Assembly (NCBI GenBank): GCA_015490755.1
Contig: WFXF01000016.1
Coordinates: 1 to 52,335 of the forward strand
Direction: 5' to 3'
Origin: Gammaproteobacteria bacterium
GTDB taxonomy: Bacteria; Pseudomonadota; Gammaproteobacteria; JAADGQ01
Length of the DNA stretch: 52,335 bases
In this document: positions 34,158-47,123 of the stretch, piece after piece
How positions within the stretch are numbered: position 1 is the first letter of the stretch
Layout: each line of letters opens with the position of its first letter
Translations under genes and position numbers: made by a program
Notes under the pieces: generated by a model
What the model saw: the letters and a program-made list of their open reading frames with translations, nothing else
The model's database searches: none
What the model was told of the DNA's origin: nothing

Positions 34158-34232
34158 TGGTAGGCGCGAGTGGGATCGAACCACCGACCACTACCATGTC
34201 AAGGTAGTGCTCTACCACTGAGCTACGCGCCT
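34158..34232 (-). tRNA. tRNA-Val (anticodon GAC)
   Basis: Cloverleaf folded by hand: acceptor AGGCGCG/CGCGCCT with encoded ACCA, D arm GCTC..GAGC, anticodon stem CTACC/GGTAG with loop TTGACAT (GAC), T loop TTCGATC. The 75-nt gene includes the CCA end and is transcribed toward thrS. Confidence 0.96.
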
Positions 34233-34392: not shown

Positions 34393-37011
34393 ATGTTTTT
34401 TAATTACAAACATAATCCATACATTGTATTACTCAGCCTTTTATTTACACTGCCTGCACTCACAGGCTGTATTGGCTATGATGAACAATCCCCTGACCCC
34501 GTCGTCAAAGACTTTGGCATTGCTTACATTAAACGAGCAATACCCAAGGATGAAGATGGTCTGTTTATTGCCGATGATGAACGTGAAATCCTGACTTTCC
34601 GTGAAGGCAGTGATCTTTATATGCGAAACCGTGCCTCACCCAGTGCCACCGAAAAAAATATCACTGCACGTATAACGAACGGAAAAGGGGATGTAAAAGA
34701 TATTTCAGCCTCTTATGATGGAAGCAAACTAATATTCTCCATGCGCCTTTCAGACCAGGATAGCGATACATGGAATCTCTGGGAATACGACATCCAAGGC
34801 GACCAATTGAGCCGCCTCATCAGCTCCGACAATACCGCCGAACTAGGTCACGATACAGCACCGCACTACCTGCCTGACGGCCGCATTGTATTTACTTCAA
34901 CTCGCCAGCGCCAAACGGGAGCCATGTTGCTTGATGAAGGAAAGCCAAAATTTTCAGGGCTTGATGAAAACCGCAATGAACCTGCCTCTGTACTGCACAC
35001 CATCAATGCAGATAGCAGCAATATTCGCCAAATTTCGTTTAACCAAAGCCATGATTTAAACCCGTCAGTACTTAATAGTGGAGAAATTATTTTTAGTCGC
35101 TGGGATCATATGGGCAACAAAAATGAAATTAATCTTTACAAAATCGATCCAGATGGTACAAACCTGCAACTACTCTATGGCGCCAACAGCCACAACACAG
35201 GCACCAACGAAACAGTCATCCAGTTCCTGCGACCCAAACCCATGCCCGATGGGAAATTACTCACAACCATCAAACCATTTAATGACCCCGTAGGAGATAT
35301 CGTTCTTATTGATATTGATAACTTCTCAGATTATAACCAGCCATTACCAACTGCAACTTCCAGCGCCACACAAACAGCTGCCACCTCACAACAGGTTTTA
35401 ATGGATGGTACTATTTCAATTGGAGGTCAATTCCATTCAGCATTTCCACTCTGGGATGGCACTGAACGCATATTAGTCAGCTGGTCACAGTGCCGTTTAT
35501 TACAAGAAGATGATCGACCTGTTCCCTGCACCGAAAAAAATATCAATAATGAAGATGTTACACCTGCGTTTCCACTATATGGCATCTATATTTACGACAA
35601 AAATAAAAATATTATGTTGCCTGTTATTCCCCCTGAAGAGGGAATCATCACCAGTAATGCGATCGCCCTGCAACCCAGAGAAATACCAGAGGCCATCCCT
35701 GACAAAATCAGTGGACTTGATCTAAACGCTGATTTTATCGAACAAAACGTCGGGGTATTGCATATCCGTAGCGTTTATGACTTTGATGGCACTTATAATA
35801 ATCTGGGTGGAAATGCAGAAAATATCACCGAATTAGCCGACCCACTTCAAACCCGTGCAAACGAACGCCCAGCCCGTTTTTTACGCATCATTAAAGCTGC
35901 ACCGACACCTGACGGAGTTTCGGGATCAACTTTCGGCCGCAGTAATCGTCAAAAAATGCGGGAGATACTGGGCTATAGCATGATCGAACCTGATGGCTCT
36001 GTCATGGTAAAAGTGCCGGCCAATATTGCTTTCACCATCAGCGTACTGGATAAAAATGGACAACGCATCGGTGATCGGCACGAAAACTGGATGCAGGTTC
36101 GTCCAGGTGAAACACTGGAGTGCCATGGTTGTCATGACGCAGACAGCACACGACCTCACGGCCGCCCTGAAGCAACAACCGCCCTCAATAACGGAGCAAC
36201 AACGGACAACATCCCGTTTCCAAATACTCGACCAGAATTAATCGCAATCACGGGCGAAACCATGGCACAAACCCGTGCCCGAATCAGCTGTGAAACAGAC
36301 TGTAATTCGCTAAACCCCAGCATGGATATTATTTTTAATGATACCTGGACAGACCCCAATATCAGACCCATAGATCCGCCATTCAGTTATCGTTACGCTG
36401 ATTTATCGACTCCCACGCCAACAACACCCCAATGCCTGGATGACTGGGATAGTCTATGCCGCACGATTATTAATTACATTCAGCATATTCACCCAATATG
36501 GAGCGCACCACGCACCATAGGCACAACGGATAACACATGCAGTCAAAGCCAGTGCCATGCTCCCACGGATAACAACGCCAATTCACGTGTACCTGCGGCA
36601 CAGCTCGACCTGTTAACAGCAGATCCTTCGGATCAAAATGCAGCCCATATCACCACCTACCGAGAACTATTTTTTAATGATAATGCTCAGGAAGTTATAG
36701 ACGGCGTACTGCAAGATAAACTTATTCAAGAGACCGATGAAAATGGCCAACGCCTTTTTGAGACAGACGAAAATGGTGATTTTATCCGAGATGCCAACGG
36801 CGACGCAATTCCGATCACCACTACTGTTCGCGCACCCAGACCAGTAATGTCTGTCAATGGTTCACGCTCTTTTTTCGAACGCTTCGATGCAGCCAGCAGC
36901 ACTAATCACTCTAATTTGCTCACCCCTGCTGAGCGACGTTTGATTTCCGAATGGCTTGATATCGGCGGACAATATTACAACAACCCTTTTGATCTACCGC
37001 CTGAAGATTAG
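34393..37011 (+). CDS. HzsA-related haem lipoprotein (hydrazine synthase alpha-like)
   Basis: An 872-residue exported lipoprotein (lipobox ALTGC, Cys 26; AAGGAA seven bases before the ATG). Residues about 100-330 are beta-propeller repeats of the PD40/TolB kind (HYLPDGRIVFTSTRQ, LNSGEIIFSRWD). A middle domain carries one canonical haem c motif CHGCH (577-581). The C-terminal domain has CSQSQCH (716-722), a CX4CH variant, and ends LISEWLDIGGQYYN, typical of haem domains of this superfamily. Propeller, haem middle domain and second haem domain are the layout of hydrazine synthase alpha; related proteins occur in bacteria that are not anammox. Activity is unknown. It begins a seven-gene plus-strand cluster with barrels and TlpA. 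Confidence 0.8.
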   Translation: MFFNYKHNPYIVLLSLLFTLPALTGCIGYDEQSPDPVVKDFGIAYIKRAIPKDEDGLFIADDEREILTFREGSDLYMRNRASPSATEKNITARITNGKGDVKDISASYDGSKLIFSMRLSDQDSDTWNLWEYDIQGDQLSRLISSDNTAELGHDTAPHYLPDGRIVFTSTRQRQTGAMLLDEGKPKFSGLDENRNEPASVLHTINADSSNIRQISFNQSHDLNPSVLNSGEIIFSRWDHMGNKNEINLYKIDPDGTNLQLLYGANSHNTGTNETVIQFLRPKPMPDGKLLTTIKPFNDPVGDIVLIDIDNFSDYNQPLPTATSSATQTAATSQQVLMDGTISIGGQFHSAFPLWDGTERILVSWSQCRLLQEDDRPVPCTEKNINNEDVTPAFPLYGIYIYDKNKNIMLPVIPPEEGIITSNAIALQPREIPEAIPDKISGLDLNADFIEQNVGVLHIRSVYDFDGTYNNLGGNAENITELADPLQTRANERPARFLRIIKAAPTPDGVSGSTFGRSNRQKMREILGYSMIEPDGSVMVKVPANIAFTISVLDKNGQRIGDRHENWMQVRPGETLECHGCHDADSTRPHGRPEATTALNNGATTDNIPFPNTRPELIAITGETMAQTRARISCETDCNSLNPSMDIIFNDTWTDPNIRPIDPPFSYRYADLSTPTPTTPQCLDDWDSLCRTIINYIQHIHPIWSAPRTIGTTDNTCSQSQCHAPTDNNANSRVPAAQLDLLTADPSDQNAAHITTYRELFFNDNAQEVIDGVLQDKLIQETDENGQRLFETDENGDFIRDANGDAIPITTTVRAPRPVMSVNGSRSFFERFDAASSTNHSNLLTPAERRLISEWLDIGGQYYNNPFDLPPED

Positions 37012-37055
37012 TTGTTATACTATTTATCAAACAATTAACTGAGAAAACAATCACA

Positions 37056-37871
37056 TTGCCCATACTGCTTACACAAAACAGGCTGAAGCTATTCACTCTG
37101 CTCTGCTGTTTTTTCACAAATGCAACATACAGTAGCGAACCTTCGTATCCAAAAATAGAGGTCGCCGAACCTTACCTGGAAATGCATACAGGCCCCGGAT
37201 GGGGTTACCCTGTTTTTCATGTTGCCAAACAAAATGAGCACATTGAAATTATAAAACGTAGAACAGACTGGTTCAAAATACGCACTCGCAAAGGAAAAAC
37301 AGGCTGGGTTTCACAAGAGAAAATGGAAGATCAAACCGATTTTTACTACTGGTCAGGCAACCGCTGGCTGCCACAGCCTAAAATGGCTAAACAACTTCCA
37401 GAGAAACAGCAAAAAAAATTCCAATGGATCAATCAACGTGACTTTTTAGCACGTCGCTGGGAGACCGGTTTACTGGGCGGCAGCTTTGATGGTGCATCAG
37501 TCATGAATATTTATGGGAATTATTCATTCACGCCGAACATATCAAGCGAACTTGCGTTATCACAAATACTCGGCACATTTTCCAGCAGCGTGATGCTGAA
37601 CGCCAACTTGCTCAACCAGCCCTTTCCTGACTGGCGGTTCTCACCTTTTTTTACATTAGGTGTGGGTGGAATTCAAACCAATCCACGCACAACACTGATA
37701 CAATCAGAAAATCGTAATAGTGCGCTTGCGCATTATGGCATAGGCATACGCAGCTATATCACCCGCCGCTTTATTTTTCGTGCGGAGTACAAAAATTACG
37801 TTATTTTTTCCAGCGATACAGACAACGAGGATATCGACGAATGGAAAGCCGGTTTCGCATTCTTTTTCTAA
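37056..37871 (+). CDS. SH3b-domain protein with C-terminal outer-membrane barrel
   Basis: A 271-residue exported protein, probably starting at TTG 37056, since no ATG precedes the signal peptide (LFTLLCCFFTNATYSSE). Residues about 33-90 form a bacterial SH3 domain (VAEPYLEMHTGPGWGYPVF, GWVSQEKM), a fold often contacting peptidoglycan. The remainder (about 130-271) is amphipathic beta strands ending FAFFF, consistent with an OmpA-size 8-strand barrel. It starts 44 bp after the HzsA-related gene and overlaps the next gene by 31 bp. It likely ties the outer membrane to the cell wall near the haem protein; inference. Confidence 0.75.
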   Translation: MPILLTQNRLKLFTLLCCFFTNATYSSEPSYPKIEVAEPYLEMHTGPGWGYPVFHVAKQNEHIEIIKRRTDWFKIRTRKGKTGWVSQEKMEDQTDFYYWSGNRWLPQPKMAKQLPEKQQKKFQWINQRDFLARRWETGLLGGSFDGASVMNIYGNYSFTPNISSELALSQILGTFSSSVMLNANLLNQPFPDWRFSPFFTLGVGGIQTNPRTTLIQSENRNSALAHYGIGIRSYITRRFIFRAEYKNYVIFSSDTDNEDIDEWKAGFAFFF

Positions 37872-38467
37872 CATTTTTTGCCCTGCTGTGTCACACGACA
37901 GCCTTCGCAACACCCCAGGTCGTCAATCCCGAGGTTGAACGCCGAGAGATCGATATTGCCGCAATTGATACCGAAGAGTTTGAAATCGGCTTATATGGTG
38001 GCCTGCTCAGTGTAGAAGATTTTGGCGTCAATTCAGTGTTGGGGTTACGATTTGCGTATCACATTTCACCCGCCATATTTGTGGAAGCCGCTTACGCTCG
38101 CAGTACCACTACAAAAACAAGTTACGAGCGTCTGAGTGGAGCGGCTGCACTCCTCACTGATCGTGAGAGAGAGCTTGATTATTACAATGTTTCATTTGGT
38201 TACAATCTGCTGCCCGGTGAAGCCTTCATCGGTAGACACCGTGCTTATAATACAGCCCTGTACCTTATCTCAGGCATAGGAAATACCCGTTTTGCAGGCA
38301 ACGACCATCGCACGATTAATCTGGGTGTGGGTTACAGATTTCTTTTGACAGATTCGATCGCACTTCACCTGGACGCACGCGATTATATGTTTGAAACAGA
38401 CCTGCTCGGTGAAAATAAAAGGACACATAACCTTGAAACTTCAGGAAGTGTCACAGTTTATTTTTAA
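37841..38467 (+). CDS. Small outer-membrane beta-barrel protein
   Basis: 208 residues with a signal peptide (cleavage near AFATPQ) and an 8-strand-like barrel (IGLYGGLLSVEDFGVNSVLG, LGLRFAYHISPAIFVEAAYA, terminal VTVYF with the C-terminal Phe expected for BAM recognition). It overlaps the SH3-barrel gene, suggesting translational coupling and perhaps a heteromeric barrel pair. It resembles the outer membrane beta-barrel domain family seen in myxobacteria and gammaproteobacteria. No enzymatic motif. Confidence 0.78.
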   Translation: MESRFRILFLTFFALLCHTTAFATPQVVNPEVERREIDIAAIDTEEFEIGLYGGLLSVEDFGVNSVLGLRFAYHISPAIFVEAAYARSTTTKTSYERLSGAAALLTDRERELDYYNVSFGYNLLPGEAFIGRHRAYNTALYLISGIGNTRFAGNDHRTINLGVGYRFLLTDSIALHLDARDYMFETDLLGENKRTHNLETSGSVTVYF

Positions 38468-38511
38468 TTGGTCTGATATAAGTAAGAGATTAAACAAAAA
38501 AAGGGATTGCC

Positions 38512-39024
38512 ATGAAAAATCACTTCCATACTTTTTCACGATTGTTTGTCCTTTTGAGTGCAATATTTATATTTCACAGTGGAACAGTTTCTGCAAAAGA
38601 GGTATCTGGCCCTGCACCCGACTTTACTCTGCCTGATGATCAGGGAAATGCAGTCAGTCTCAAAGATTTTCATGGAGAAGTGATCATGATTAATTTTTGG
38701 GCTTCATGGTGTATTCCATGCCGCCATGAAATGCCTTTTTTGGAAAAACTCTATCAACGCTATAAAGATCTTGGGTTTACCATTATTGGCGTTAATGTGG
38801 AAGAAGACCCCCAGATGGCACACACCATGCTGAAAAAAATCCCGGTCAGCTTTCCGATTGTATTTGACCAACAAAACAATGTTAGCAAGCTCTATCAGGT
38901 TTCAGGGATGCCGACCACAATATTAATAGATAAAAGTGGCAACAAACGCTTTGAACACAAAGGCTATCTCCCTGGTATCGAAGAAACATACAAAAAACAG
39001 GTGAAGGCACTGATTCGGGAATGA
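38512..39024 (+). CDS. TlpA/ResA-like periplasmic thioredoxin
   Basis: A 170-residue exported thiol-disulfide oxidoreductase. Signal peptide to about residue 26, then the TlpA fold (PAPDFTLPDDQGNAVSLKDF) with active site WCIPC (C67, C70) and cis-proline loop SGMPTT. Proteins of this type reduce cysteines for cytochrome c haem attachment or for metal sites. The upstream haem protein and the downstream Cys-tailed lipoprotein (ATGA overlap) are the obvious candidate clients. Confidence 0.9.
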   Translation: MKNHFHTFSRLFVLLSAIFIFHSGTVSAKEVSGPAPDFTLPDDQGNAVSLKDFHGEVIMINFWASWCIPCRHEMPFLEKLYQRYKDLGFTIIGVNVEEDPQMAHTMLKKIPVSFPIVFDQQNNVSKLYQVSGMPTTILIDKSGNKRFEHKGYLPGIEETYKKQVKALIRE

Positions 39025-39242
39025 AATTAACCAGTCTGTTTTTTTTAGCCGCTCTATTTCTCACTGCTTGCAGCAGTGTTGAACCCTGGGTAAAGCCCTA
39101 TGAACGTGCCCATTTAGCCGACCCTATTATGAGTTTTGAGCGAAACCCTGTATCGAGCAGCTATCGAAACCATGTCTACCAAGCACGTGAAGGCGCCCGT
39201 GGTGCCGAAGGGGGCAAAGGCGGTGGCTGTGGCTGTAACTAA
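39021..39242 (+). CDS. DUF4266 lipoprotein with a Gly-Cys tail
   Basis: A 73-residue lipoprotein (lipobox FLTAC) with the DUF4266 core VKPYERAHLADPIMSFE and a C-terminal tail GGKGGGCGCN. The two tail cysteines, spaced C-G-C, look like a metal- or thiol-active end. The ATG overlaps the TlpA stop (ATGA), and its own tail codons contain the start of the DUF3570 gene. TlpA, DUF4266 and DUF3570 commonly travel together; no function has been established to my knowledge. Confidence 0.88.
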   Translation: MKLTSLFFLAALFLTACSSVEPWVKPYERAHLADPIMSFERNPVSSSYRNHVYQAREGARGAEGGKGGGCGCN

Positions 39243-40407
39243 TTTACGACAGATTTTCATGATTGTCTGCCTGGCAGGCATGGCATCATTCGTCCAGGCA
39301 GCCATCCTTCCTGAAGACCGTGCCGATGCACTTTTTCACGTCTACGATGGCGGCGGTGTAACAGTCAGTGGCCCCTCTATTTTAGTCAGAAAAGAGTTTG
39401 CCCAAAAATTTTCTGTTTCCGGTAACTATTATGTTGATTCGATCAGCAGCGCATCCATTGATGTAATTACCAGAGCAAGCGAATACTCCGAAGAACGCAC
39501 AGAAAATAGTGTAGGTATTGACTACCTTCACAACAAAACAATCATGGGGCTTGCATACACTAAAAGTGATGAAAATGACTTTAATGCCCAGTCAACACAC
39601 TTTACAATCAGCCAGGATCTATTTGGTGATTTAAGTACATTATCACTGGGGTATTCTCGTGGCTGGGATAAAGTAAGCCGACGTGGCGACCCCACTTTTT
39701 CCAGGGATGCAGACCGTCACCACTATCGCTTGGGTCTATCACAAATACTTACAAAAGATTTGTTATTCAACCTGAATTATGAAGCTATTACGGATGAAGG
39801 TTTTTTAAATAACCCTTACCGGAAAGTAAGATACCTTGCCAATAGCAATTCACAAGCCGATTCCAGCCAAGAGTGCCCCTCTGGACGCAATTACTGTTAT
39901 GAAGATGAACTTTATCCAAATACTCGTACCAGTAATTCAGTCGCATTGCGTTCAATCTATTACTTGGCTCACCGTGCAGCACTCAAAGGAGAATACCGCT
40001 ACTTCACCGACACTTGGGGAATCGGCGCACAAACCTATGAAATAGGCTACACCTACCCTGCCGACAACCACTGGATTTATGACTTCAGATACCGCTACTA
40101 CCGACAAAATCAAGCTGATTTTTACAATGACCTGTTCGCATATAAAGAAGCTCAAAACTACCGGGCTCGAGATAAAGAGCTCAGCACATACAACAACCAC
40201 ACCTTCGGTATAGGTGCAAGCTACGAATTTTTGCGCAAAAACTGGAAATTCATTGATAGAGGTACGATTAACTTCGCATGGGATCATATACGCTTTCAGT
40301 ACGATAACTTTCGGGATTTACGCTCACAAACAGATGCCGCAGGAGATGAGCCACTGTATAAATTTTCAGCCAATGTTTTTCAAACTTACATCTCCATTTG
40401 GTATTAA
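39223..40407 (+). CDS. DUF3570 outer-membrane protein
   Basis: About 394 residues from GTG 39223, 8 bases after a GGGGG-rich ribosome site and inside the 3' end of the DUF4266 gene; GTG 39229 is also possible. Signal peptide (IFMIVCLAGMASFVQA), then a DUF3570 barrel (DALFHVYDGGGVTVSGPSIL, VSGNYYVDSISSASIDV, terminal YISIWY with aromatic end). It probably forms a 14-16 strand outer-membrane barrel partnered with the DUF4266 lipoprotein. Transported or bound substrate unknown. Confidence 0.85.
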   Translation: MAVAVTNLRQIFMIVCLAGMASFVQAAILPEDRADALFHVYDGGGVTVSGPSILVRKEFAQKFSVSGNYYVDSISSASIDVITRASEYSEERTENSVGIDYLHNKTIMGLAYTKSDENDFNAQSTHFTISQDLFGDLSTLSLGYSRGWDKVSRRGDPTFSRDADRHHYRLGLSQILTKDLLFNLNYEAITDEGFLNNPYRKVRYLANSNSQADSSQECPSGRNYCYEDELYPNTRTSNSVALRSIYYLAHRAALKGEYRYFTDTWGIGAQTYEIGYTYPADNHWIYDFRYRYYRQNQADFYNDLFAYKEAQNYRARDKELSTYNNHTFGIGASYEFLRKNWKFIDRGTINFAWDHIRFQYDNFRDLRSQTDAAGDEPLYKFSANVFQTYISIWY

Positions 40408-42771: not shown

Positions 42772-43968
42772 TCAAAAAAACCAGCTCAACTCTGCTTGTA
42801 AATAATCATCCTGCCTTTGTGTATACAGCACATCATCAGGGTCAATATTATTGAAGCCCTGATACTCAAGACTGAGCTTCCAGCGATCACCCAAACGGCG
42901 ATTCGCTTCGAGTCGAAGGCTATACCCTCCATAATCAAGGTCAACAAAAGCACCCGCTAGAAGCTCGCTGCTCTCTGCATCATTCAGAGCAACCCTCACC
43001 GCCGTAAACAGGTCATTTTGGAAAGGGGTTGTCGCATCGAGAGAGCGGTCATCATAATGATACTCAACCAACCAACCCACATCAGCATCCGTTTCAAATG
43101 CACCAACAAACGTATATTCAAAACCACCGACAAGCGCTGCATAATTTTTATTGCCATTATTTTGTTGATCAATACGATAAATAGACTCCAGCTTTAAAAT
43201 CCATTCATCCAGCGTCGCCTGTAAATCAAGGCCTGTCTGATTAATCAAATTATAGTGGGGAATCAGTTTATAGCCTCGCTGCCTTAACTCCGGGGTACGT
43301 GATGTACCATAAAAATTTGACAAACCCACATCCCAGACACCCAGGGTATGGCTCCAGCGAACCGCATAATCAACGTGTCGATCTTTGCTCTTTGACTCAT
43401 ATACAGGATTATCCGTATCAACAACAAGCGGGGCTCTCAAACGCCCCCTTTCACCTGCATAAGTGCGTTCACGAAAACCAGGCAGTATAAACAGATCCAG
43501 CACACCCCAGTTCTGACTCCAGCTCGCCTGAATCATCGGTTGACCCAACTTATCCTCACCGTCAATATTTTCAACAGAATCCGTTTGATTGATTACATCG
43601 ACTAGATGTTGTGATTCAGTCACCCCCCAAAAAACTCGCCCCAAACCCAATCGCCACTCCCAGTCCCCCTGAACCAACAACATATTCAATTCACGAATAT
43701 CACGATGAGTACGCTCTGAATCACTCTCATCCCAACGTAAAAAAGGGGAGAAAATAATGGATCGCTCACCCTCATTCCATTCATGATAGATCTCGGGTGC
43801 AAATGAGAGTGACAGTGAACTGCCACGGTCAAACCTCGATGCTCCAAAAAAAACAGGTTCTTCTGGAAAATAACGTAATTCAGAGGCAATATTTCCGGAT
43901 ATTTCGATGGCTTGACCAACGGCACTGAAAAACAGGAAACATGAAAAAGCGGTAATACGGAGTTTCAT
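42772..43968 (-). CDS. Outer-membrane beta-barrel protein of the MMPL operon
   Basis: 398 residues; signal peptide cleaved near VGQAIE, then barrel strands throughout (GSSLSLSFAPEIYHEW, WEWRLGLGRVFWGV) ending in LSWFF, the terminal Phe expected of outer-membrane proteins. It overlaps the LolA-like gene by one base. With the MMPL transporter and the LolA-like protein it could provide a route from inner to outer membrane, probably for a lipid. It resembles DUF1302-type barrels loosely. Confidence 0.8.
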   Translation of the reverse strand: MKLRITAFSCFLFFSAVGQAIEISGNIASELRYFPEEPVFFGASRFDRGSSLSLSFAPEIYHEWNEGERSIIFSPFLRWDESDSERTHRDIRELNMLLVQGDWEWRLGLGRVFWGVTESQHLVDVINQTDSVENIDGEDKLGQPMIQASWSQNWGVLDLFILPGFRERTYAGERGRLRAPLVVDTDNPVYESKSKDRHVDYAVRWSHTLGVWDVGLSNFYGTSRTPELRQRGYKLIPHYNLINQTGLDLQATLDEWILKLESIYRIDQQNNGNKNYAALVGGFEYTFVGAFETDADVGWLVEYHYDDRSLDATTPFQNDLFTAVRVALNDAESSELLAGAFVDLDYGGYSLRLEANRRLGDRWKLSLEYQGFNNIDPDDVLYTQRQDDYLQAELSWFF

Positions 43969-44759
43969 TATCGAATTCGTTTTAACGCATTTTTATTGAA
44001 ATCCTTGTCTGTCAGCCCTGTTTTAAACCGATAATTTTTCCACTCCAACCGTGTACTTTTACCTGTTTGATGGTTCTCCATATACATTTCATCGGGTCGC
44101 CAGTACTTATCCAGATATTGATTGTAACCACTCAACTTCAAGGTTTTTAATTTTGAGTTTTTTCGATCAAAATATTCAACTTTAATCGCACGATATTCTG
44201 TTTGATCAATCCATGAAACCATTCGTGTATAACCTGAATATTTATAAGCAGGCACACGCTCAATCACATAACACTGTAATTCACCACAGGGCTCGTCCCT
44301 CAGCCATTTATAGGTATATTTTTCAATCTCTTGTGAACTCAAATCTTCATAAGCAAACTCACTCCCCATAAATGACCCTGATTTATTTTTTGAGCTGATC
44401 CGTTTCACTCGCTTTAAGCCAGGAAGGTATAACCATTGATCATCCGCTTTCAAACCATGCGAAAATGTCAACATAGCTGTTCCTTTGATATCACGGGGAC
44501 GATCAAAAATGGAGATACTTTTATCACCATCCCCTTCAACTTCCAGAGTACGAATCCGGATATAACGCACACTTTCATCGCCTTTACGATTACGCAGAGT
44601 CATCACCATATCAGCAGTCATATCATGAAAGCCGGTATCACGCTGATCCATCTCAACAGCAATCGCCAGCCCTTTTTCTTCGGCGCTCATCGCCTGCACC
44701 CCAGCCGAGATAGCCATAAACAATAATCCAGCAACGACTTTTACAGAGGTCATCTTCAT
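43968..44759 (-). CDS. LolA-like outer-membrane lipoprotein-sorting family protein
   Basis: 263 residues with a signal peptide (LLFMAISAGVQAM). The mature fold is LolA-like (PF17131 type): FHDMTADMVMTLRNRKGDES, RYIRIRTLEVEGDGDKS, FDRPRDIKGTAMLTF, WLYLPGLKRVKRI, and DLSSQEIEKYTYKWL. These periplasmic proteins accompany MMPL/RND exporters and are thought to carry a hydrophobic cargo across the periplasm. It overlaps the transporter gene by an ATGA. Confidence 0.88.
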   Translation of the reverse strand: MKMTSVKVVAGLLFMAISAGVQAMSAEEKGLAIAVEMDQRDTGFHDMTADMVMTLRNRKGDESVRYIRIRTLEVEGDGDKSISIFDRPRDIKGTAMLTFSHGLKADDQWLYLPGLKRVKRISSKNKSGSFMGSEFAYEDLSSQEIEKYTYKWLRDEPCGELQCYVIERVPAYKYSGYTRMVSWIDQTEYRAIKVEYFDRKNSKLKTLKLSGYNQYLDKYWRPDEMYMENHQTGKSTRLEWKNYRFKTGLTDKDFNKNALKRIR

Positions 44760-47038
44760 GCTTTTTTTCCTTCCAGTTTCATCAATAATGTGGGTAAAAA
44801 TAGAAAATCAACTGCCAAAGCAACCCCGATCGTAACTGCAGTCATCAAACCCATGCCTGAATTCAGCTCAAATGCGGATAACGTCAGCACTAAAAAGCCA
44901 GCAATCAACAGTAATGAAGTCACCCATAAAGCGACCCCGACATTGGCAAAGGCATAACGCACCGCATCTTCCGAACTCAAGTTATTTTCACGTTGAGCCC
45001 GCAGATATTTGCTAATAAAGTGCACCGTGTCATCAACAACAATCCCCAGCGTCATTGTCACCACTACAGAAAGCGCCAAACCCACTTCACCCACAAACAA
45101 TCCCCATACACCAAAAGCAATTGCAGCAGGTATCAGGTTGGGAACCAGACTGATCAGACCCAATTTTACAGAACGCAATGCTACAATCAAAATCATTGAA
45201 ATCAATATCAATGCAACCACCGTTCCGCCCAGCATACTACGAATATTGCGTTCACCGATATGGGCAAACATCACGGATGGACTCGCCCCGGTTGTCAGCA
45301 TTTCTGGTGCATTTTCTTTAAACCATGCTTCAGCTCTTGACTCTAAATCAAGAATATTTTTAGTCGAAATCGTATCCAGTGTAATTGAGATACGCACCGC
45401 CGATTTATCAACATTAATCTGATTATTCAGATCCAGCCCGTAAGGCAGAGACATCTCATAAAGCAATAAATATTGTGCGGCAAGATCACGCTCTTCAGGC
45501 AATACATAATAAGCAGGATCATCGCCATGCATATTTTTATTCAGCCGTTTAAACGTATCTGTGATTGTATTGACATGCTTGGTTTCCGGCTGCTGCCTGT
45601 ACCAGTCAGCAAACTGATCCACTTTTTTCAAAAAATCGGGATTACTGATTCCGCCGCTTTCACCGCTCTCAAGTGAATAATCAATAAAATAGATTCCTGT
45701 TAAATTGTCAGCAACAAGGTCAGTATGTGCGCGAAATTCAATCGTTTCATCAAAGTAATTGACAAAAATATCATTCAGTTCGTTTTTCGGAATAAAGGCA
45801 ACTGATAGCAGAATAATCCCTGCCATTCCCCAAAAAATACTTTGCCGACGACGAATCACAAATTCTGAAAATTGTTCCATCAAGCGAGATGAAAGTGCTT
45901 TTGACGGTTTAACTTTAACAGGCAAAATAGCCATAATTGCAGGCAACAACATCACACTCAGGAAAAATGCATACATCACACCCATCGCTGTGATATTACC
46001 TAAATCACGAAAGGGTGGTGCATCACTAAAATTCATACTAAGAAAACCGACTGTTGTCGTTGCTGAAGTTAGAAATATAGGCTGAAAGTTAATACGCAAA
46101 CTCTCAACAATCGCATCATTTTTACTGCTGCCTTTACGCATTTCGTGCAGCATCGTCACCAAAAAATGGATACTGTCTGCCACCGCCAGTGTCAAAATCA
46201 TCGTCGGTGCAGACATTGCCGGAGGAGTCAGCTGAATTCCGAGCCAGCCCGCACTGCCCATTGCCATCACAGTTGAAAAAACAATGACACATACAGTGCC
46301 AATAGTACCCGCAATACTGCGTAAAAAGAGAAAAGCACCAATAATGATAACCAGGTAGGAGAGTGGCACCAGCGTCTGCATATCTTCCTGACTGGCCTCA
46401 GGAAATGCATTATTCATCAAAACAACACCGGTCATATAGAGATCTATTTGAGGAAACTCGGCCTCAATGCGCGTTTTAATTTCACGCGCAGCCGCTGAAA
46501 CTTCAAACACTTCATTCGGATCATTGCCAGGCAGCTCAACCACAACATTAACACCTGTTGCATGTGCAGACGGGGAAATAACCCGGTTAACAAGCAGCGG
46601 TTCATTCAGCGCAATATTTTTAATTGATTGTAGCTGGTCAGTGGTCAGAGTTCTTGGCTCTTCAATTAAATCAACAACACTCAGATCATCGCCTGATGCG
46701 TAAGTGTGCTGGTAGTTGCTGATTGAATCGACCCGAATTGAGTATGGTATTTGCCAGGAGTCTTCGGTCAATTCGACCACAGCCTCCAGCACGTCAGGTG
46801 TAAAAACCTCGCCCTCTTTCGGCATCAGCATAAAAAGGATATTGTCATTTTTAGTGTAGGTATCTTGCAGGTTTTCAAATGCAGTGAGCTGTGGATTATC
46901 TTCACTAAAAAACACGCGATAGTCATTACTAAATGATAAAAGCTGGCCACCACTGGCCAATAATCCAACAACACCAAGCGTCAAAAAGACAATAAGCCAA
47001 CGCAAACGAATGACCCAACGAGCGTACTGTTCTACCAC
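44756..47038 (-). CDS. MMPL/RND-family hydrophobic-compound transporter
   Basis: About 760 residues from GTG 47038, chosen because AAGGGGAAAG precedes it directly and the protein then begins VVEQYARWVIRLRWLIV, the usual start of the family; an in-frame TTG at 47101 is less likely. Twelve membrane helices in two halves (duplicated SSD-like blocks: TMILTLAVADSIHFLVTMLH and VVTMTLGIVVDDTVHFISKY, carrying the Asp pair for proton coupling) and two periplasmic porter domains. Works with the LolA-like and barrel proteins. Substrate unknown; MMPL proteins export lipids, hopanoids or fatty-acid derivatives. Confidence 0.9.
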   Translation of the reverse strand: MVEQYARWVIRLRWLIVFLTLGVVGLLASGGQLLSFSNDYRVFFSEDNPQLTAFENLQDTYTKNDNILFMLMPKEGEVFTPDVLEAVVELTEDSWQIPYSIRVDSISNYQHTYASGDDLSVVDLIEEPRTLTTDQLQSIKNIALNEPLLVNRVISPSAHATGVNVVVELPGNDPNEVFEVSAAAREIKTRIEAEFPQIDLYMTGVVLMNNAFPEASQEDMQTLVPLSYLVIIIGAFLFLRSIAGTIGTVCVIVFSTVMAMGSAGWLGIQLTPPAMSAPTMILTLAVADSIHFLVTMLHEMRKGSSKNDAIVESLRINFQPIFLTSATTTVGFLSMNFSDAPPFRDLGNITAMGVMYAFFLSVMLLPAIMAILPVKVKPSKALSSRLMEQFSEFVIRRRQSIFWGMAGIILLSVAFIPKNELNDIFVNYFDETIEFRAHTDLVADNLTGIYFIDYSLESGESGGISNPDFLKKVDQFADWYRQQPETKHVNTITDTFKRLNKNMHGDDPAYYVLPEERDLAAQYLLLYEMSLPYGLDLNNQINVDKSAVRISITLDTISTKNILDLESRAEAWFKENAPEMLTTGASPSVMFAHIGERNIRSMLGGTVVALILISMILIVALRSVKLGLISLVPNLIPAAIAFGVWGLFVGEVGLALSVVVTMTLGIVVDDTVHFISKYLRAQRENNLSSEDAVRYAFANVGVALWVTSLLLIAGFLVLTLSAFELNSGMGLMTAVTIGVALAVDFLFLPTLLMKLEGKKA

Positions 47039-47123
47039 ACACTTTCCCCTTTCTTCATATTTTAATACCGAGATAATGCTGCCATGAAAGTCTACCAGCA
47101 AACAATCGTTCCACTAAAGGGGG

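Follow-up and report, generated by a model that had tools for sequence, protein, structure and literature searches.

Introduction

Gene clusters encoding ApbE, DUF3570, a thioredoxin-like protein and DUF4266, often together with DsbD, were described in 2021 as a flavinylated electron-transfer system (PMC8238504, Meheust et al.), in which DUF3570 was shown to carry flavin at two [ST]GA[ST] motifs and the CXC tail of DUF4266 was noted. A second described system is a gammaproteobacterial core of the Agl/Glt machinery (gltD, E, G, C, aglRQS and one extra gene in one block), which resembles the proton-driven gliding machine of Myxococcus. Luciano et al. (2011, PMC3169522) present it as a complex that is functional but has no known role, and Wartel et al. 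(2013, PMC3858216) as a possible basal transport machinery. Here we analysed a stretch of 52,335 nucleotides from a gammaproteobacterial genome (the window, to which all positions refer), in which positions 34393–40407 hold a six-gene cluster that combines TlpA, DUF4266 and DUF3570 with two small barrels and a homologue of HzsA, the alpha subunit of hydrazine synthase; haem binding, the lipid anchor and the membrane location are predicted from sequence. The cluster is a real, conserved and co-inherited block. We tentatively favour the explanation that it encodes a flavin/thiol/haem redox unit of the outer membrane coupled to a proton-driven envelope machine.

With the system of Meheust et al., the locus shares the TlpA-type thioredoxin, DUF4266 with its CXC tail and DUF3570. 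Several relatives also have an apbE gene within the cluster. The locus differs in its divergent DUF3570, in which a single degenerate site (DxxSSAS) stands where the described system has two SGA[ST] motifs. The HzsA-like diheme lipoprotein, the two small barrels and an Agl/Glt-like core are additional, whereas apbE and dsbD are absent from the window. An earlier note on this DNA had called the set an undescribed redox system, which was too strong for the TlpA-DUF4266-DUF3570 trio, since this had already been reported with ApbE and often DsbD (PMC8238504).

Conservation and layout of the six-gene block

In a search of 185 related genomes, the haem protein was found in 29. Twenty-five loci had an intact haem-protein gene (the window, L032–L052, L054, L058 and L059), and 22 of them retained the order HzsA-like protein, SH3-barrel, barrel, TlpA, DUF4266, DUF3570; one or two members were missing from their position in L039, L044 and L048. 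A class-wide scan of 369 genomes gave 50 HZS_alpha matches of at least 52 bits in 49 genomes, distributed over 29 gammaproteobacterial families. DUF3570 lay within 10 kb of 45 of these matches, the remaining five being from genomes with the locus split over contigs, and was present in 48 of the 49 genomes. Fifteen weaker HZS_alpha matches (<51 bits) were unlinked and belonged to other proteins. No full-length relatives of the haem protein were found among the genomes of other classes in a 398-genome Pseudomonadota sample. Fisher p-values assume independence between genomes and so exaggerate the significance; the argument rests on family counts and contiguity.

The earlier note had proposed scoring how often the partners lie within 10 kb of the haem gene, with chance co-occurrence in this genome as the opposing outcome. 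Chance fails because of the retained order and the proximity of DUF3570. Since gene order was kept across approximately 29 families and nothing was found in favour of a chance neighbourhood, we regard that explanation as practically excluded.

A check of open reading frames (ORFs) and sequence placed six ORFs on the plus strand in 34393–40407. They were co-oriented and either overlapped or were separated by at most 44 bp, just as the earlier note had described. The overlaps 37841–37871 and 39021–39024 agreed exactly with that description, and both gaps (37011/37056 and 38467/38512) were 44 bp long. The third overlap (39223–39242) depends on the start of DUF3570, which may be a GTG at 39223, within the DUF4266 gene, or an ATG at 39259. 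The features, with protein lengths in amino acids (aa), are as follows.

34393–37011, plus strand: HzsA-like (PF18582) beta-propeller lipoprotein with two predicted c-type haem motifs, 872 aa (Pfam: HZS_alpha, 60.7 bits, E 2e-16, plus PD40)
36079–36081, plus strand: His563, family-invariant, which may contact a substrate or serve as axial ligand at haem I; the corresponding HzsA residue is not His
36121–36135, plus strand: haem I motif C577-H-G-C-H581 (CHGCH), invariant in 25/25
36538–36558, plus strand: haem II motif, CSQSQCH (CX4CH) here and CXXCH in relatives (sequence and comparison with relatives)
36907–36909, plus strand: His839, at the position of alpha-His772, which in HzsA is the distal haem alpha-II ligand (alignment; invariant in 25/25)
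37056–37871, plus strand: SH3 domain and predicted small outer-membrane beta-barrel, 271 aa (Pfam: SH3_3, OMP_b-brl; gene order kept in relatives)
37841–38467, plus strand: predicted small outer-membrane barrel, TIGR04565 (OMP_myx_plus), 208 aa (NCBIfam: 156 bits, cut-off 60)
38512–39024, plus strand: TlpA/ResA-type periplasmic thioredoxin, 170 aa (Redoxin/AhpC-TSA in Pfam and NCBIfam; WCIPC)
38710–38721, plus strand: CIPC redox motif of TlpA (sequence)
39021–39242, plus strand: DUF4266 small lipoprotein, 73 aa, ending in GCGCN (PF14086, E 1e-23)
39228–39236, plus strand: C-G-C at the DUF4266 C-terminus (GCGC[ND] tail in 24/24 aligned relatives)
39223–40407, plus strand: predicted DUF3570 outer-membrane barrel of a divergent 'class II' (PF12094, E 8e-37, 116 bits)
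39436–39456, plus strand: DSISSAS, a degenerate form of the motif flavinylated by ApbE (canonically D-x-x-[ST]-G-A-[ST]), identified by alignment to other DUF3570s that have the canonical form

A profile of the small barrel gave no match among solved structures. AlphaFold models from three-row alignments had a mean predicted local distance difference test score of 35.6 for the haem protein and 48.5 for DUF3570; they were too poor to be used and were taken as neutral.

Relationship of the haem protein to hydrazine synthase

The profile of the 25 relatives matched hydrazine synthase alpha (5c2v) with an E value of 9e-20; separate stretches of similarity lay in the propeller, in the middle domain and at the C terminus. 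The lipobox Cys26, His202, His220, His563, C577/C580/H581, C716/C721/H722 and His839 were invariant in all 25. In a pairwise alignment, His839 fell on chain position 745, which corresponds to alpha-His772 (offset 27, with the numbering fixed by His587). The protein thus shares with hydrazine synthase alpha the propeller, the middle haem domain, the C-terminal domain, the CXXCH of haem I and haem II with the His772 position. The His772 position is absent from the clade I homologues of a 2025 survey of the origin of anammox enzymes (PMC12758564), whereas the window protein retains it. The earlier note had rightly called the protein HzsA-related, with a lipid anchor that is predicted, and required correction on the haems, for which there are two motifs (CHGCH and CX4CH). 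The CSQSQCH form of haem II occurred only in this species; a congener (L032) has CSLCH, and the six additional bases resemble a short duplication in frame.

Other features set the protein apart from the enzyme. Tyr591, the axial ligand to haem alpha-I, had no counterpart, and no conserved Tyr followed His581 in the alignment of the 25 relatives. The position of the zinc ligand Cys303 was occupied by Asn265 in the window protein and by His in 14 of the 25 relatives; Cys303 is also missing in some anammox genera (PMC12758564). The operon contained no gene for a beta/gamma subunit, in agreement with the earlier note, which had seen none of the usual anammox partners, and a predicted lipid anchor is present instead. 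Because Tyr591 is without a counterpart and Cys303 is not kept, the haem protein is best described as a homologue of HzsA in which two c-haems are predicted and which, judged by its active site, is not a hydrazine synthase. A nitrogen enzyme resembling hydrazine synthase would fit the PF18582 match, the homology in the propeller, middle and C-terminal parts and the retained distal-ligand position. We nevertheless consider it very improbable given the two lost residues, the cluster without a beta-gamma gene and the CCP_MauG frames of the genome, which were only 339–381 aa long.

A small lipoprotein (fam18, approximately 170 aa) with a CX4CH motif adjoined the haem protein in L048, L049, L051, L052 and L054, and its relatives replace the haem protein in three genomes (G037, G285 and G179).

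Probable flavinylation of the divergent DUF3570

Two classes of DUF3570 were distinguished. Those linked to the haem gene scored 75–154 bits against the Pfam model, with 116 bits for the window protein, and most unlinked ones scored approximately 170–450 bits. Class-II proteins had a single site, D-x-[IV]-[ST]-[SGA]-A-S, which corresponded in the alignment to the canonical D-x-x-[ST]-G-A-[ST] and kept the Asp and the acceptor Ser. An [ST]GA[ST] motif was found in the DUF3570 of 5 of the 25 relatives; the window protein has one DxxSSAS and not two [ST]GA[ST]. Replacement of the motif Gly by Ala halves flavinylation and does not abolish it (PMC12052999, from which the motif definition was also taken).

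Neither apbE nor dsbD was found in the window. Ten relatives encoded ApbE in or beside the operon. Two of these loci, L038 and L041, had apbE flanked by the DUF3570 gene and the following gene of the cluster, and both DUF3570s had the SSAS site. The window genome encoded two ApbEs, one of which (on contig 42) was 48–58% identical to the cluster-linked ApbEs and the other approximately 30%; its DsbD was on contig 67. Because the Asp and acceptor Ser are kept, a change of the Gly lowers flavinylation without abolishing it (PMC12052999), ApbE is cluster-linked and the contig-42 ApbE is similar to the linked ones, flavinylation of class-II DUF3570 is likely.

Two further modules linked to the operon

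A conserved gammaproteobacterial trio, termed module A, was divergent from the haem gene in 17–18 loci. It comprised a PSCyt3/PSD2-like cytochrome (one CXXCH), a LamG lipoprotein (two CXXCH) and a protein with a twin-arginine translocation (Tat) signal that resembled DUF1501; this resemblance was judged by eye, and no Pfam match to DUF1501 was obtained. In the window genome, module A was on contig 22 (L137, 1238–6497).

Canonical DUF3570/TlpA/ApbE clusters in two other loci (L145, 5153–8279; L152, 5245–8877) adjoined a Tat-signal DUF1501-like protein and a lipoprotein, which has two haem motifs in L152; this pairing thus recurs outside the class-II system.

Module C lay beside the operon in relatives and encoded a 186-aa protein, two large TPR proteins, a GltE-like TPR lipoprotein (51 bits, below its cut-off; the third TPR protein of the module), a 95-aa protein, a MotA/TolQ/ExbB protein (AglR-like), two ExbD proteins (AglQ,S-like) and a GltG-like TonB-domain protein. 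The latter matched the AgmX/PglI C-terminal domain (NF033768) with 74.2 bits (cut-off 40), and the copy in the window genome with 63.5 bits. A TonB2-like ExbBD energiser was rejected as the identity of module C; because there are two ExbD genes and AgmX/PglI far outscored TonB_C (74 against 23 bits), the module is Agl/Glt-like. It shares with the core described in PMC3169522 and PMC3858216 the MotA/TolQ/ExbB-like protein, two ExbD/TolR-like proteins, the GltG-like C-terminal domain and the arrangement in one block. TPR proteins occur in both, although of the three in module C only one resembled a Glt protein (GltE). It differs in its GltG-like protein, which is short and gave no FHA match, and the consulted parts of the two papers do not mention the redox operon.

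The GltG-like gene was present in 47 of 49 genomes with the haem protein versus 38 of 320 without it, and lay within 26 kb of 24 of the 54 class-II DUF3570 loci. In many loci, fam3, TPR4 and TPR6 directly followed DUF3570 with overlaps or short gaps. The window genome carried module C on contig 41, complete except for the 186-aa gene, which was not seen there.

In one complete single-contig genome (G036), the haem gene was broken into two short frames (L053, 8435–10255), no DUF3570 or GltG-like gene was found and module A was intact. This pattern is consistent with a joint loss of the haem gene, DUF3570 and the GltG-like gene.

Proposed mechanism and alternative explanations

From gene content, gene order, co-inheritance and motifs, we infer the following mechanism. 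Reducing equivalents derived from DsbD would pass through TlpA to the CGC tail of DUF4266 in a thiol relay and meet flavin mononucleotide that ApbE may attach to the DUF3570 barrel at DxxSSAS. At the outer membrane, electrons would then reach the HzsA-like lipoprotein with its two haems, as well as the cytochromes of module A, and a substrate would be reduced or oxidised there. The Agl/Glt-like apparatus would span the periplasm and contact the barrels, which may take the structural place of the Myxococcus GltA/B/H barrels, and its proton-driven action could power the positioning, gating or turnover of the redox unit. The more specific proposal, that the orphan Agl/Glt core acts on a flavin/thiol/haem unit built around an HzsA homologue, so that inner-membrane energy gates or positions surface redox chemistry, is possible, although we rate it as somewhat unlikely. 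The earlier note had suggested a redox module outside anammox bacteria. A conserved, co-inherited envelope redox cluster without the hydrazine synthase haem ligand agrees with this suggestion, which had missed the flavin link, the motor and module A.

Several observations weigh against the coupled redox unit. The Gly of the flavinylation motif is replaced by Ser in most class-II DUF3570s, and even its exchange for Ala halves flavinylation (PMC12052999). One family (f36; G037, G285 and G179) and the genome G019 carry the operon without the haem protein: DUF3570 and TPR4 are present, with the barrels, TlpA and others where the locus is complete, and in f36 the fam18 lipoprotein occupies the place of the haem protein. 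The haem protein is therefore not obligatory. M. xanthus GltG has an FHA domain (PMC3169522), for which the GltG-like protein gave no match, and the operon, module A and module C are on separate contigs in the window genome. Co-inheritance is the sole ground for coupling the motor to the redox unit, and haem, flavin and location are predictions from the genes.

The six genes could instead form an assembly and export station, in which TlpA and DUF4266 act on cysteines while haem is being attached, the barrels and the motor move the lipoproteins and Tat cargo of module A to the surface, and the redox parts mature cargo and are not an electron pathway. TlpA-type proteins are known from pathways in which they reduce the cysteines of apocytochromes. 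Three more proteins with haem motifs or a Tat signal are linked to the operon, and PMC3858216 describes Agl-Glt/Nfs machines as surface transporters. We consider such a station unlikely: it leaves the ApbE-linked flavin barrel and the invariant CGC tail of DUF4266 unexplained, and canonical trios occur without module A or a motor. That canonical DUF3570 systems have no motor, and that 38 genomes have a GltG-like gene and no haem protein, would suit a plain extracellular electron conduit (DsbD, TlpA, DUF4266, flavinylated DUF3570 and surface cytochromes) beside which the motor is a co-selected neighbour with a task of its own. The operon was without a motor in only 2 of 49 genomes, however, and fam3, TPR4 and TPR6 follow DUF3570 tightly in many loci, which makes the plain conduit rather improbable. 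Lower still we place a surface-polymer machine, in which the motor would move polysaccharide and the haem, LamG and flavin proteins would bind or oxidise it. The LamG lectin domain on the two-haem lipoprotein and the action of Agl-Glt/Nfs machines on slime and Exo polymers (PMC3858216) speak for this idea, but the conserved gene set shows no polysaccharide enzymes.

Surroundings of the operon

Upstream of the operon, on the opposite strand, were tRNA-Val (34158–34232, minus strand) and thrS; the downstream neighbour was a Cache histidine kinase (Pfam). No RNA structure was found upstream of the operon (z 0.2), and promoter and terminator counts were similar to those of shuffled sequence. At 42772–47101 on the minus strand of the window, a barrel-like protein without a Pfam match adjoined a LolA-like lipoprotein-sorting protein (PF17131). 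The same group contained a 781-aa protein resembling an MMPL/RND transporter; the Pfam scan covered the other two proteins of the group.

Implications

The TlpA-DUF4266-DUF3570 trio has been known since 2021 (PMC8238504), and we found no report of the larger assembly of operon, motor and module A. The present analysis describes gammaproteobacterial homologues of HzsA, and their haem II ligand position, from outside the groups of the 2025 survey (PMC12758564). The biology of ApbE and DUF3570 is extended to a divergent class with an altered acceptor motif. The linkage also names likely partners of the gammaproteobacterial Agl/Glt core, which has been without an assigned function since 2011 (PMC3169522). 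It may give that motor a role, and the role of the core becomes directly testable genetically.

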